Origin: Streptococcus orisratti DSM 15617
Lineage (GTDB): Bacteria > Bacillota > Bacilli > Lactobacillales > Streptococcaceae
Length of the DNA stretch: 64,000 bases
Reading direction: 5' to 3'
NCBI RefSeq assembly: GCF_000380105.1
Contig: NZ_KB904493.1
Location: 1-64,000, forward strand
The position numbers and the translations under genes are program-made. Below, one piece after another: positions 55,834-60,876 of this stretch. Each line of letters opens with the position of its first letter. Within the stretch, counting starts at the first letter, position 1. Below the pieces are notes generated by a model. It saw only the letters and a list, made by a program, of their open reading frames with translations, ran no database searches and had not been told where the DNA came from.

Positions 55834-56679
55834 TCATGAAACAATTTTTTCAAACTCTTCATGCCACTGCTTAGCCTCCTCCGCTGAAAATAATAAGGTA
55901 ATAGCACTCAAAACTTGTTGGTGTTGCCTTTTTGCTTCTGATCTATCTTGCCACAAATAATCAAAACTTGCTTCCAATTCTAACAAGGCAAGTTTTTCAT
56001 AGGCAAAATAGTGAGGTAGGGAAAACTGCTTTAAGTGATTTAATAAGGTCTGACTTAAACTCTTTTCTTTCCTAGAAAGCAAAACAGATAAGCAGTTCAA
56101 GAGTGTGTCATATTTAATTCTGTCTAAATTATTGCGTGGTTCAGAATTGAGTTCTTTTAGGATATCTGTGGCTAAAAGAGCTAGCGTATCTGCTGTTAAA
56201 AACGACACCACATTTCCCGATAAACCAATATCTAAATTCGTCCAATAATCTATCGAGAAAAAATAATCTGTTAACTCTGCAATGATTTCCTGATCTGGCT
56301 CTTTCCCCTGTAACTTAGCTAAGACAATAGCAATTGTCAAACTAATAATGTGGTAAATATAGTGACCTTGACTTGAAGCCAAAGTTTCAAAGACCTGCGT
56401 CAAAGAAAACAGTTCTTCTTGATTACCATCAGCTATTGCTTTTTGTAAGTGATTGACTTGAGTGAAGAAGTCAGACTTGTAAAAATAATCCCACTCAAAA
56501 AATTCATTAACTTCAACAATCATATAACTCAACAGTTCTAAGAGTACATCGTTAGAAAGCATCGTTTTACCATTTTCAAAATCAGATATACTGGTTGCTG
56601 ATCCTGCGATACTTGCCAACTGCTTTAAAGATAGTTTACGTTGCTTACGAATAGCTCTAAATTTTTCTCTTGCTTCCAT
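55834..56679 (-). CDS. Rgg-family transcriptional regulator (intact)
   Basis: 281 residues. N-terminal XRE helix-turn-helix (REKFRAIRKQRKLSLKQLASIAGSATSISDFENGKTML) and a C-terminal helical repeat domain typical of peptide-responsive Rgg/ComR regulators, including YFFSIDYWTNLDIGL and SEPRNNLDRIKYD. The ATG at 56679 has AAAGGAAG close by; an upstream ATG within the paralogue is not used. The neighbouring broken rgg is a clear paralogue (shared FSIDYWTNLDI/FSLDIWTNVDI and PRNNLDRIK blocks). It probably controls the RiPP cluster on the opposite strand, by analogy with Rgg/SHP-RiPP systems. Confidence 0.88.
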   Translation of the reverse strand: MEAREKFRAIRKQRKLSLKQLASIAGSATSISDFENGKTMLSNDVLLELLSYMIVEVNEFFEWDYFYKSDFFTQVNHLQKAIADGNQEELFSLTQVFETLASSQGHYIYHIISLTIAIVLAKLQGKEPDQEIIAELTDYFFSIDYWTNLDIGLSGNVVSFLTADTLALLATDILKELNSEPRNNLDRIKYDTLLNCLSVLLSRKEKSLSQTLLNHLKQFSLPHYFAYEKLALLELEASFDYLWQDRSEAKRQHQQVLSAITLLFSAEEAKQWHEEFEKIVS

Positions 56680-56701
56680 TTGCTTCCTTTCGGATTTCAC
56701 A

Positions 56702-57563
56702 TTAAAACTCATTGATAAACGCAGATTTAAAATCGGTATCCCATTCCTCTGCCAATCCTTTTAACTCAATAAACTCTAAAGTTTTCAAAACTTTCTGATG
56801 CAGATTCAGACCATTTGATTTATTTTTAAAACAATAATGATAGGCGGATTCAAGCTCCTTAAGATATAGGCTCTGTAAGGCAAAATAATCAGGAAATCTA
56901 AGTTCTTCTAAAAGTGATAAAAATCGCCTGCTTTCAGCACTTTCGCCAATTTTGATGAGGTAAAAGATACAACTACCAATGCTGTCAACCTTAATACGAT
57001 CAAGATTATTTCTAGGTGGATGATCGATACTAGCCATAATTTCATTCATAAAAATGGTTAATGTTTTTACATTAAAAACTGTTTTAGCCATATCCAACAA
57101 ACTAATATCCACATTTGTCCAAATATCAAGAGAAAAGAAATAATCTCTCAGAGTTTCTATAACCCCATTATCTAAAGTTCGGTGTTGCAACTGGTGTATT
57201 TGGCATTGAATACATAAAGAAATAATCTTATCTATGGGATTGTTATTTCCTAACTGTTCAAACGCATGACAACATTTCTCTAGGGAAGCAACATCTTTTT
57301 CAAACATAGCCTTCAAACATAGCCTTATTAAAATCATTGGCTAACTCTTGAAAGCTTTTATCCAATAACAAATCATTGTCGAAAAATTCATTGTATTCAA
57401 CTCGTAAATATCTCAACAGTTTAAAGAGATTATCATTAGATAAAGAGGTTTTTCCATTTTCAAAATCAGAAATACTGGCAACTGAACTAGCAACTTCTGC
57501 TAATTGTTTAATTGTTAAGTGACGTTGCTTGCGAATTAGTCTGAATTTTTGTCCTTGTTCCAT
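56702..57563 (-). pseudogene. rgg paralogue disrupted by a 13-bp tandem duplication
   Basis: An XRE HTH (MEQGQKFRLIRKQRHLTIKQLAEVASS...) reads 87 codons to a premature stop at 57300, and the rest of an Rgg ligand domain continues in another frame to 56702. The break coincides with two perfect copies of the 13-mer CAAACATAGCCTT (57301-57326, plus strand). Deleting one copy gives 849 nt, 282 codons plus stop, with a smooth NKAMFEKDVAS join. It lies 20 nt upstream of the intact rgg start and divergent from the precursor gene. Reading-frame restoration by slippage is possible. Confidence 0.9.
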
Positions 57564-57574
57564 AAAAACTCCTG

Positions 57575-57588
57575 TTCGGATTTCCGAA
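57575..57588. promoter_or_regulatory. Palindrome TTCGGA-tt-TCCGAA in the rgg/precursor intergenic region
   Basis: A perfect 6-2-6 dyad lying 12 nt from the disrupted rgg start and 29 nt upstream of the precursor -10. The 10-mer TTCGGATTTC recurs at 56689-56698, 10 nt from the intact rgg start. It is a candidate Rgg binding site, but as it overlaps both rgg leaders it may partly be paralogous leader sequence. Confidence 0.6.
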
Positions 57589-57616
57589 AAATATTAAATA
57601 ATTTAAATTTCAAAGT

Positions 57617-57646
57617 TATAATAGGTACAACATAAGTGAAAGGAGG
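57617..57646 (+). promoter_or_regulatory. Precursor -10 and ribosome binding site
   Basis: TATAAT at 57617-57622 and AGGAGG at 57641-57646, seven nt before the precursor ATG. No good -35 is visible at 17 bp (AT-rich sequence only), so the promoter probably needs an activator such as Rgg. Confidence 0.75.
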
Positions 57647-57653
57647 AACAACC

Positions 57654-57737
57654 ATGATTATTGAAGAAAATAAATCTGTTGCGATTCAACAATTAGAATC
57701 TAGCAATCTATGTGGCGGGGGCTGTTTAAACCTTTAA
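57654..57737 (+). CDS. Radical-SAM RiPP precursor peptide (streptosactin/GGG-group-like)
   Basis: 27 residues. The leader-like part MIIEENKSVAIQQLE is acidic and carries no membrane or double-glycine signal. The core is SSNLCGGGCLNL with cysteines at 20 and 24. If each Cys links to the residue three before it, the rings would be Ser17-Asn-Leu-Cys20 and Gly21-Gly-Gly-Cys24, two non-nested four-residue thioethers, the topology I recall for streptosactin. It has a consensus SD. A radical SAM enzyme and an exporter follow. Too short for most gene finders. Confidence 0.9.
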   Translation: MIIEENKSVAIQQLESSNLCGGGCLNL

Positions 57738-57750
57738 GTGATATTATAAC

Positions 57751-57811
57751 ATAACTTAAAAGTTATATTATAATTGAGTAGTCGCCAGCCTGTATTGAGT
57801 TACAAGCTGGC
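57751..57811 (+). terminator. Stem-loops between precursor and enzyme genes
   Basis: ATAACTT-aa-AAGTTAT (57751-57766) and GCCAGC-c-TGT...ACA-a-GCTGGC (57784-57811), the latter followed by TGATTTG. The tail is only weakly U-rich. They probably give partial termination or 3'-end protection, so that precursor mRNA exceeds enzyme mRNA. Confidence 0.65.
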
Positions 57812-57828
57812 TGATTTGTAGGTGAAAA

Positions 57829-59124
57829 ATGAATTATTCTAAATATGTTATTAAACTTGATGATAATAAGCACGTATACTTATTTAATACTAAAAATAAT
57901 TTATCAGTAAAAATAGAAAACAACTTACTAAAAGATTTGAAAAATGATACAGAGCTGTTCAATAGGTTCCAAATTTTTTTAGCAGATCATCAATTTTATA
58001 CAGCTGAAAATGAAAAATCTAGCACATTGAAAATGCTACAAAATAAGGATAATGATACTTTAAGAATCATTATCCTTGCGCACGGTGATTGTAACTTCAG
58101 ATGCAAATATTGTTACGAAAAATTCGAAAATATATGTATCCATGATAAAGTTTCAGATATAATATCCTTCATAAAAAATAAGTTATCTGAAAAAAACTTT
58201 AGTAGATTACATATTTCATGGTTTGGAGGGGATCCCCTGTTAGGATATCGAGAAATACTTGATATTTCCGATATTCTTATTACTTATTGTAACAAGAACG
58301 ACATTTTATATTCTGCTGATATAACAACTAACGGGTACCTCCTATCACCCACTGTTTTTTCTAAATTAGTAAATTTATGTAAAATCACAACTTTTCAAAT
58401 AACAATTGATGGAACTCAAAAAGGGCACGACAATCAAAGAGTATTAAAAAATGGTCATGGTAGCTATAGACGTGTTATAGATAACTTACTGTCAACTATT
58501 AACACATCTCTCTCTTTTCAAATAATTATCAGGAGGAATGTTTCAAAAGAAAACTCTGAAGATGTTAAAAACTTTTTAAATACAGATGCAAAATATTTCA
58601 AACCTGATAAGAGATTTAAATTTATTTTCAGGAATGTGGGAAATTGGGGATGTGGTGAGCGGGTAAAGGGATACGAAGTTGAGATGTTTGAAAAAGATAT
58701 TTCCTTTGAATTTTCTAAATACGCCTTGTCACAAGGTTTTCGACTCTTTGATCCTTCTATAATTGCTACAAATAATCTTGCGTGTTATGCTCAAAAAAAG
58801 AATTCCTATGTCATTGACACTACTGGGAAGCTACTAAAATGTACTGTTGCTTTATATGAAGATTGTAACGTAATTGGAAATATAGCTAATGGTGTAACAA
58901 ATACAAACAATCAAGATTTATGGGTTAATAACCTTGATTGTTTTTCAAATAAATGTGAAAACTGTGAATTGCTCTTCATCTGTAAAGGGGGATTTTGCCC
59001 TAAAATAAGAATTATGAATTCTACAACACATGATATTTGTAAAGAAATGAAACAGATGATTACAAATAATTTTAGGTTAAAAATTCTATCAAATGACTTT
59101 AATTTTGTATTAAGGAGAAAATAA
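57829..59124 (+). CDS. Radical SAM/SPASM peptide-modifying enzyme (sactionine synthase-like)
   Basis: 431 residues. Residues 1-80 look like a PqqD/RRE-type peptide-binding start (MNYSKYVIKLDDNKHVYLF). The radical SAM cluster motif is Cys88-x3-Cys92-x2-Cys95 in DCNFRCKYCYE, followed by WFGGDPLL and DITTNGYLL. The C-terminal SPASM domain is complete: Cys319-x13-G-x4-Cys338, then Cys376-x2-Cys379-x5-Cys385-x3-Cys389 and Cys404. Two auxiliary 4Fe-4S clusters are therefore expected. It should install the thioether links in the 27-residue precursor. The gene is visibly more AT-rich than the housekeeping neighbours. The SD AGGTG is modest and 4 nt from the ATG. Confidence 0.93.
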   Translation: MNYSKYVIKLDDNKHVYLFNTKNNLSVKIENNLLKDLKNDTELFNRFQIFLADHQFYTAENEKSSTLKMLQNKDNDTLRIIILAHGDCNFRCKYCYEKFENICIHDKVSDIISFIKNKLSEKNFSRLHISWFGGDPLLGYREILDISDILITYCNKNDILYSADITTNGYLLSPTVFSKLVNLCKITTFQITIDGTQKGHDNQRVLKNGHGSYRRVIDNLLSTINTSLSFQIIIRRNVSKENSEDVKNFLNTDAKYFKPDKRFKFIFRNVGNWGCGERVKGYEVEMFEKDISFEFSKYALSQGFRLFDPSIIATNNLACYAQKKNSYVIDTTGKLLKCTVALYEDCNVIGNIANGVTNTNNQDLWVNNLDCFSNKCENCELLFICKGGFCPKIRIMNSTTHDICKEMKQMITNNFRLKILSNDFNFVLRRK

Positions 59125-59125
59125 A

Positions 59126-60709
59126 ATGCTGGATGGTCTAAAATACCTAAAAAAATGGAAATTATATCTCTTTCTAATTTTTGCCTTGCTTTACTCCTGC
59201 CAAGGAGTTATTATGCCCATTATTATTCAGTTGGCTGGAAAGCTTGATTTAAATAATACTTATCAAATCGTTATTTTTGGTATTGTTAGTATCAGCTTAT
59301 GGATCCTTGTTTATCTTTTTATGTATGTAGAAAATGTACTCCTGAGAAGTCTCATTAAGGATAATAATACTGAAATTTCTAAACAGATTTTAGATAATTA
59401 CGCTTCTAAACAGATTTGTTTGACAGACTCAGAATTAACCTCCCTACTCACACAAGATTTAACAATATTCTGGCAAGATTGCTTGTTGTCTTTGCTGATT
59501 TTTCCAGTTTTTGGATCATCTATTATTGTCTCAATTATTTATATTATTTGGCAAAATCCTTTTGTAGGCACACTGTTTGTTATTGGTGGCTTATTGATGA
59601 TTATCCCCCAATTTATCTTTAATAAAAAACTCAATAAAACAGGCCTCCTGCTTAGTCAAGCCAAGGAAGAAAGCTTGAAAAGCATTACTGACTTTGGAAA
59701 AGGGATAAATTCCATTCGGAGCAATCAGGCAGAAAGTGACTTTTCTAATCATACCTTAAACCAAATTAGAAATACTGAGCATCGTCAATTCCAATATTTC
59801 ACCACTCATAATCTTGTCATGTTTTGGACTGGTCCTTTGAAAGGTTTGGGAATTATTCTTCCCTTTATCATCGGATTAACAATTACAAATCTACCTCTGA
59901 CCACCTTAATTGCCATGATGACCGCTTCTACTTATCTGATTAACCCTCTACAACAATTGTTAGAGGCAAGTTCAAATTTACAATCAAGTCAAAAGATTAA
60001 AGAAAAAATTCTTCAGAACGCCCAAACTTATCCTGATGATAAACAACTACAAATCAAGGAAGCATCTCACATTAGTTCGCTTGAAATAGCTCACCTTTCA
60101 AAGTCATTTCCTGAAAAGGTGATTATCAAAGAGGCTAACTTAAAAATAACAGAAGGCGAACATGTTCTTCTTGTTGGAGAAAGCGGCAGTGGTAAATCTA
60201 CACTTTTAAATATTTTAAGCGGTGAAGACCAAAATTACTCAGGGAACATCGTCTATACTAACAGGAAGAATCACCAACTAAAACCTAGTTACAATTTTAT
60301 TTCTTTAATTCATCAAATTCCCTATATTTTTCAAGCTAGCCTGAGAGATAATCTAACACTTTATCAAAATTATAACGATGAACAACTTTTATCTATCTTA
60401 AAAGCCGTTGGTTTATCACAGGACTTTAATCAAAACCTAGACTACTACCTTGATGGACACAATCTTTCAGGCGGTCAAATCATGCGACTAGAAATTGCGA
60501 GAACACTTCTTCGCCAAAAATCAGTCATCTTAGCAGATGAAATCACAGCATCCCTTGATAGACATACCGCAAAGTCAATTAGAACTCTCCTCCATCAGCT
60601 CCCTAAAACCATTACCATCATTGAAGTTGCACACAAATATAATCCCGAAGATTATGATACTATCTATGAACTAAAAAATGCAAAAATAATAAAAATGAAA
60701 CAAGGGTAA
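59126..60709 (+). CDS. ABC exporter for the modified peptide (TMD-NBD fusion, no peptidase domain)
   Basis: 527 residues. Residues 10-300 contain six membrane helices of an ABC_membrane domain; the nucleotide-binding domain follows with Walker A LVGESGSGKSTLLN, signature HNLSGGQIMRLEIARTLL, Walker B SVILADEITASLD and switch His region EVAHKYN. There is no N-terminal C39 peptidase, so leader removal must be done by another protease. It starts 1 nt after the radical SAM stop and closes the cluster. Export of the mature RiPP, or self-protection, is inferred from position. Confidence 0.92.
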   Translation: MLDGLKYLKKWKLYLFLIFALLYSCQGVIMPIIIQLAGKLDLNNTYQIVIFGIVSISLWILVYLFMYVENVLLRSLIKDNNTEISKQILDNYASKQICLTDSELTSLLTQDLTIFWQDCLLSLLIFPVFGSSIIVSIIYIIWQNPFVGTLFVIGGLLMIIPQFIFNKKLNKTGLLLSQAKEESLKSITDFGKGINSIRSNQAESDFSNHTLNQIRNTEHRQFQYFTTHNLVMFWTGPLKGLGIILPFIIGLTITNLPLTTLIAMMTASTYLINPLQQLLEASSNLQSSQKIKEKILQNAQTYPDDKQLQIKEASHISSLEIAHLSKSFPEKVIIKEANLKITEGEHVLLVGESGSGKSTLLNILSGEDQNYSGNIVYTNRKNHQLKPSYNFISLIHQIPYIFQASLRDNLTLYQNYNDEQLLSILKAVGLSQDFNQNLDYYLDGHNLSGGQIMRLEIARTLLRQKSVILADEITASLDRHTAKSIRTLLHQLPKTITIIEVAHKYNPEDYDTIYELKNAKIIKMKQG

Positions 60710-60846: not shown

Positions 60847-60876
60847 AAAAAACCTAGGCGAATGGCCTAGGTTTTG
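60847..60876 (-). terminator. Bidirectional terminator between the RiPP cluster and the amino-acid ABC operon
   Basis: AAAACCTAGGC-cattc-GCCTAGGTTTT, perfect 11-bp arms, with T runs on both sides. It ends the ABC operon on the minus strand and can also end RiPP-cluster transcripts. Confidence 0.9.

Follow-up and report, generated by a model that had tools for sequence, protein, structure and literature searches.

The 64,000-nucleotide stretch of Streptococcus orisratti DSM 15617 analysed here (contig NZ_KB904493.1, positions 1 to 64,000 of the forward strand; hereafter the window) contains a complete locus for a ribosomally synthesised and post-translationally modified peptide (RiPP), linked to regulators of the Rgg family. 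Genes for a precursor peptide, a radical S-adenosylmethionine (SAM)/SPASM maturase and an ATP-binding cassette (ABC) exporter lie on the plus strand, two rgg genes on the minus strand (Table 1). This unit and its coordinates had been described in a first-pass annotation and are borne out. That annotation also had two divergent regulators with the second one broken; one is indeed broken and one intact, but it is the broken rggA that adjoins the precursor gene, with the intact rggB distal. With a probability of roughly one half, we read the locus as a radical-SAM RiPP operon of a lineage neighbouring the NxxC ranthipeptide systems, most likely of the CGG subfamily, whose product would carry a beta-thioether between Asn18 and Cys20.

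Table 1. Features of the locus in the window (window positions) and precursor genes of related Paenibacillus loci (positions within each locus); aa, amino acids; HTH, helix-turn-helix
Feature	Position	Strand	Remarks
rggB	55834..56712	-	intact Rgg-family regulator, 292 aa
rggA	56702..57563	-	broken rggB paralogue: 87-aa HTH frame and separate 211-aa C-terminal frame
operator-like palindrome TTCGGA-TT-TCCGAA	57575..57588		14 bp, conserved across clade loci
-10 box TATAAT	57617..57622	+	28 bp past the palindrome
precursor peptide gene	57654..57737	+	27 aa; ATG 57654, stop 57737; core ...SSNLCGGGCLNL
hairpin, precursor/enzyme gap	57778..57825	+	-17.5 kcal/mol, z -3.3; possible attenuator
radical SAM/SPASM peptide maturase	57829..59124	+	431 aa; NxxC-group relative, CGG clade
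ABC exporter	59126..60709	+	527 aa; transmembrane and ATPase regions
terminator-like hairpin, 3' of operon	60849..60875	+	4 such in region vs 2.0 expected in shuffles
Paenibacillus precursors	L046:5744-5872, L047:5523-5651, L050:5743-5871		possible further subfamily

Precursor peptide and lineage of the maturase

The precursor, MIIEENKSVAIQQLESSNLCGGGCLNL, has AAAGGAGG before its start. A similar peptide with its own Shine-Dalgarno site is found between rgg and the enzyme gene in three other genomes, so the window precursor is not a chance frame; conservation of the peptide in related genomes, which the first-pass annotation had made a test of its proposal, is thus present.

The maturase has every cluster cysteine, as had been noted before, ten in all: three in the CX3CX2C motif (C88/C92/C95) and seven in the SPASM region (C319, C338, C376, C379, C385, C390 and C404), the latter invariant in 19/19 alignment rows. 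It is 39-42% identical over the full length to 13 enzymes of the NxxC group (E 1e-106 to 1e-119), among them those of S. porci, S. suis, S. parasanguinis and others as well as a copy on contig 18 of the same genome. NxxcB was recognised in this group by species, motif and residue numbering rather than by accession. Identity to four GggB, the streptosactin maturases, is 25-28% over 153-193 residues (E 1e-7 to 1e-9).

With the S. ovuberis enzyme as query, 26 of 284 Streptococcus genomes match at 1e-60; five of the 284 carry an enzyme at least 55% identical to the query, and the remaining matches reach 44% at most. Outside Streptococcus, two genomes match at 1e-40 (295 genomes of the order searched). 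The five genomes, i.e. the window genome (G000), S. ovuberis (G269), G143, HSISM1 (G227) and G161, form a clade of their own in the enzyme tree (support 100/99), hereafter the CGG clade, and the four GggB branch separately. Support is 97/98 for a branch uniting this clade with two Paenibacillus rows, one of Lactobacillales and one of Clostridia; some of these rows are long and their placement uncertain. By sequence, the enzyme lineage lies beside the NxxC ranthipeptide systems as a separate clade. The nearest solved chain by sequence, profile and fold is 5wgg/5why, which we take to be CteB, a ranthipeptide synthase. An AlphaFold model of the enzyme (mean pLDDT 82.8), likewise nearest in fold to 5why/5wgg, is of low confidence in the SPASM part and uninformative on the acceptor residue.

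The first-pass annotation had assigned the cluster to the streptosactin (GGG) group, an assignment rejected on model score, identities and tree placement. The GggB model (NF050038, cut-off 650 bits) is not among the best 25 of 33 families for the window enzyme, the 25th of which scores 27.3 bits; a true GggB scores 776.6 bits. The best NCBIfam match of the exporter is GggC (NF050039), but its 172.6 bits fall short of the 750-bit cut-off, which is passed by none of the three matches in the window's own genome. The exporter shares 25% identity with one GggC and 50% with the exporters of two clade-mate loci; no peptidase domain is among its Pfam matches. The GggC model passed its cut-off in 48 of 244 genomes and supplied the GGG loci for comparison, of which 30 were kept; a fitting precursor was found in eight, and none in the other 22 within the flanking bases examined. 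One of these precursors ends exactly in NASCGPSHSCGGGR, the published mature streptosactin (PMC12445099). In the comparison with the streptosactin genes that the annotation had proposed, the leader is a different one and the enzyme identity low and limited to part of the length. Its reading was also said to fall if the closest characterised homologue of the enzyme made a different linkage; the NxxcB group is reported to do so, and the streptosactin reading is refuted by that measure. The name streptosactin was also given in 2018 to a pneumococcal sactipeptide cluster of 25.5% GC (PMC6120550), possibly a naming clash.

Candidate linkages of the product

Four precursors of the CGG clade are readable, with the cores SSNLCGGGCLNL (window), KNLGCGSGC (S. 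ovuberis), KNLICGSAC (HSISM1) and KNFVCGSGC (G143); in G161, where the enzyme locus is cut by the contig end, a precursor was searched for and none found. Asn, the first Cys, the following Gly and the second Cys are invariant in all four. The clade mates carry CGS where the window peptide carries CGG, and their second Cys is the C-terminal residue. Asn and first Cys are separated by one residue in the window and by two in the other three, a switch that recurs when S. suis (TNFC, TNNC) is compared with S. acidominimus (TNYGC). Among 14 representative precursors of the enzyme family, 13 have Asn two or three residues before the first Cys (-2 or -3) and the remaining one has Asp at -3; shuffled peptides yield a mean of 3.9, and 13 was reached in 0 of 20000 trials. 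The 14 were taken from 21 tabulated precursors (18 with Asn at -2/-3, three with Asp at -3) by dropping seven near copies or clade duplicates (five with Asn, two with Asp). The Asp-bearing precursors of the NxxC group (L010, L098, L099) have D-H-Y-C with a single Cys; the ranthipeptide freyrasin is reported to use Asp as well.

For the S. orisratti NxxcA a single bridge is reported, a beta-thioether between Cys23 and Asn20 (PMC8326336). The NxxC precursor on contig 18 of the window's genome has Asn20 and Cys23, in agreement with this numbering, and two Cys altogether. The window product is probably linked differently from streptosactin, since its enzyme is akin to one joining Cys to an upstream Asn, not to GggB; such a peptide would be still uncharacterised. 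On this lineage, the enzyme would take a hydrogen from Asn18 and link the sulfur of Cys20 to the Asn beta-carbon, a linkage to which we give about even odds. The bridge would correspond to a loss of two hydrogens and to one ring whose partners are separated by a single residue, Cys24 being left free or engaged in a second linkage. The exporter would then secrete the product and a host protease trim it. By analogy with other streptococcal radical-SAM RiPPs, for which such action is reported, close relatives are the probable target of the product.

Several observations weigh against an Asn18-Cys20 bridge. The shuffle test counts related peptides as independent. The window peptide itself has N-x-C (S-N-L-C), exact N-x-x-C being confined within the clade to the other three readable precursors and absent also from some NxxC-group peptides. 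At -2/-3 of the first Cys, three of four GggA peptides have Asn too, and the published streptosactin bridges leave the Asn before the first Cys unused; for both reasons the Asn motif is no proof of the acceptor. The leader starts with MIIEENK, by eye like those of NxxC precursors (e.g. MIVKENK) and unlike those of GggA, but this start is missing from the other three CGG-clade precursors. In the window the precursor gene lies upstream of the enzyme gene, an order seen in all four CGG loci read, the Paenibacillus loci and G406; in those streptococcal NxxC loci that yielded a precursor, its gene lies downstream. The window enzyme scores higher with PapB (ranthipeptide, 92.9 bits) than with RumMC (sactipeptide, 43.7 bits), and so does a true GggB (87.0 vs 55.3 bits), for which reason the NCBIfam scores leave the linkage undecided. 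Moreover, 40% identity is insufficient to set the type of reaction in the radical SAM superfamily.

The residue at +3 of the first Cys also belongs here. It is small in all four CGG-clade cores (G, G, A, G), whereas G or A is found at this position in only one of 14 NxxC-group peptides (G). Because of this small residue, one streptosactin-like Cys-to-Gly ring has to be considered, i.e. a sactipeptide arisen by convergence with a single alpha-thioether Cys20-Gly23 in C-G-G-G, like the second ring of streptosactin. Such a ring is unlikely, if a serious candidate: the enzyme is no GggB, and its closest characterised relative forms a beta-thioether. The PapB score of GggB, the NxxC-group peptide with G at +3 and the unshared leader start do not move our odds for the Asn18-Cys20 reading, as none of them concerns the lineage of the enzyme.

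The conservation of both Cys and of the Gly after the first in 4/4 precursors would also fit a product in which both are used, the Asn18-Cys20 beta-thioether being joined by a second linkage of Cys24 within C-G-x-x-C. We hold this for rather unlikely, given that a single bridge is reported for NxxcA (PMC8326336), although the contig-18 peptide, taken as NxxcA, has two Cys. The two successive four-residue rings of the first-pass annotation (Cys20-Gly23 and Cys24-Leu27) can be drawn on the window core, whose spacing they fit, but are impossible in the other three clade precursors, where a second Cys-to-(+3) ring is excluded because the peptides stop at the second Cys. Even in the window, the second ring would have to use the C-terminal residue as acceptor, and the enzyme lacks kinship with GggB; a two-ring product is thus the least probable of the layouts, to be given very little weight.

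Regulators, operator-like palindrome and genomic setting

The intact regulator rggB matches Rgg_C with 73.6 bits and shares 48% identity with the Rgg encoded in the S. ovuberis and G143 loci; the nearest solved chains are 5w4m/5w4n/4yv6, presumably Rgg2. The two frames of rggA overlap at 57300-57337, and a tandem duplication of 13 bp (copies at 57299 and 57312) marks the frame break. Slippage at this repeat (57299-57324) could be reversible, and the 87-aa frame retains the DNA-binding domain.

The palindrome is present in the rgg-precursor gap of all four readable CGG loci, identical in three and one base off in HSISM1, and a -10 box (TATAAT, in one locus TATACT) follows it at 28 bp in each. 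The case for the palindrome is made by this conservation and spacing, since a two-mismatch palindrome of such kind is expected by chance in the window. Binding of the Rgg to the palindrome, upstream of the -10 box, would switch the operon on. One 0-mismatch site each occurs in the genomes of the window, S. ovuberis, HSISM1 and G143, at the loci; beyond these, the five CGG-clade genomes yielded no 0-mismatch copy of TTCGGATTTCCGNA, G161 having none at all. A wider regulon was considered and rejected: at up to one mismatch there are two to three sites per genome against zero to six with the reversed control pattern, which puts the seven one-mismatch sites at chance level, and none stands beside a recognised rgg. 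One of these copies (L124:713-1514, near 16523 on contig 9 of the window's genome) lies inside a larger open reading frame (ORF), less than 500 bp from a gene similar by eye to one that adjoins the S. ovuberis cluster, and may be due to chance.

A home-made pattern scan for the short hydrophobic peptide (SHP) pheromone, judged by eye, brings up no convincing candidate in the four CGG loci, though an unusual pheromone could escape it. Its 14 rows (window 5, L034 5, L033 0, L027 4) were dismissed by eye: they correspond to the precursor, to frames lying within larger genes or antisense to them, and to one short frame downstream of rggB that lacks a Shine-Dalgarno site. A canonical SHP is found in 3/3 control loci, i.e. 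the GGG locus of G161 and the NxxC loci of the window's own genome and of S. porci. An Rgg without SHP raises the question which signal it reads. It would be an improbable but distinct kind of system if the peptide of the operon itself, as precursor or product, were the pheromone: a ranthipeptide with a one-residue bridge span (Asn18 beta-carbon to Cys20) controlled through an SHP-less Rgg and an operator without a second exact copy in the genome.

The hairpin in the precursor/enzyme gap of the window has a counterpart of different sequence in S. ovuberis, which is stronger (z -8.0); both stretches were picked after inspection of the sequence, and in the corresponding gap of HSISM1 no hairpin rises above shuffles. 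Such gap hairpins may set the precursor-to-enzyme ratio. An Rfam search of the window gave no match at the gathering score.

Damage is frequent in the clade: a transposase-like ORF lies within the enzyme gene of G143 (L027), stops occur in the N-terminal part of the HSISM1 enzyme (L033), and the G161 locus (L029) ends with its contig. Three of five loci being damaged or cut, and rggA being broken, the window cluster could be decaying and without function. This is highly doubtful, as precursor, enzyme, exporter and second regulator are all open frames in the window and the S. ovuberis locus is intact too.

The cluster is flanked by feoAB and a glutamine-type ABC transporter (neighbours named by eye). 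The GC content of the enzyme gene (28.4%, window 38.4%) is lower than in all 628 sampled stretches of equal length; the AT-richness pointed out in the first-pass annotation is therefore real, and the transfer suggested from it holds as a possibility. The gap between feoA and glnQ is 5317 bp in the window, 589 bp in G013 and 114 bp in G015, the only two of 25 other genomes searched in which the two genes are side by side. Because they adjoin there, the cluster was either gained at the window site or lost in these relatives. A plasmid search yields 19 matching records, all below 60% identity (25-34% among the 10 listed of the 19), and a phage search three records of 26-30% identity.

Comparison with known systems

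Streptosactin loci share with the window a radical SAM/SPASM enzyme, a core rich in Cys and Gly, the same broad exporter type and a nearby Rgg. They differ by the degree of identity in enzyme (25-28%) and exporter (25%), by another leader, by an SHP in the one GGG locus scanned, and by two Cys-to-(+3) rings with two residues between the partners. A CGGG core alone is insufficient for the label streptosactin, and a plausible filing is hereby corrected.

NxxcA-NxxcB ranthipeptide systems are reported for S. orisratti and S. porci (PMC8326336, PMC13361665). The window shares with them the enzyme family (39-42% identity), the leader start, an Asn just before the first Cys and the link to Rgg. In contrast, its enzyme belongs to a separate clade, its core is N-x-C instead of N-x-x-C, its Rgg is 23% identical to the SHP-linked one of the NxxC locus in the same genome, and it has one exporter and no convincing SHP, whereas the NxxC loci of S. 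orisratti and S. porci possess an SHP and two exporters. This second radical-SAM RiPP cluster of the genome (contig 18, L030:6025-11836) consists of the SHP MKTQKLLSLLLLVFEGIIIIVVG, Rgg, enzyme, precursor and two ABC exporters. If the N-x-C bridge holds true, NxxcB-like enzymes would make two ring sizes.

Paenibacillus loci (L046, L047, L050) resemble the window in having the precursor upstream of the enzyme, ending in ...NDNCNGC, and L046 and L047 share one branch with the CGG clade (97/98); they differ by a longer leader, 31-32% identity and long tree branches. Among other related loci, no precursor was found in L056 and L100, and no enzyme frame was recognised in L113.

A CGG subfamily, with rgg, without shp and without known function, is listed for S. 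orisratti alone in PMC13361665, the only source naming it in a non-exhaustive literature search. The CGG core, an rgg without shp and the host are common to this entry and the window, which probably holds the very locus listed. A RiPP subfamily of CGG type without a known product thereby gains a clade, four precursors, a conserved operator-like site and a testable linkage.

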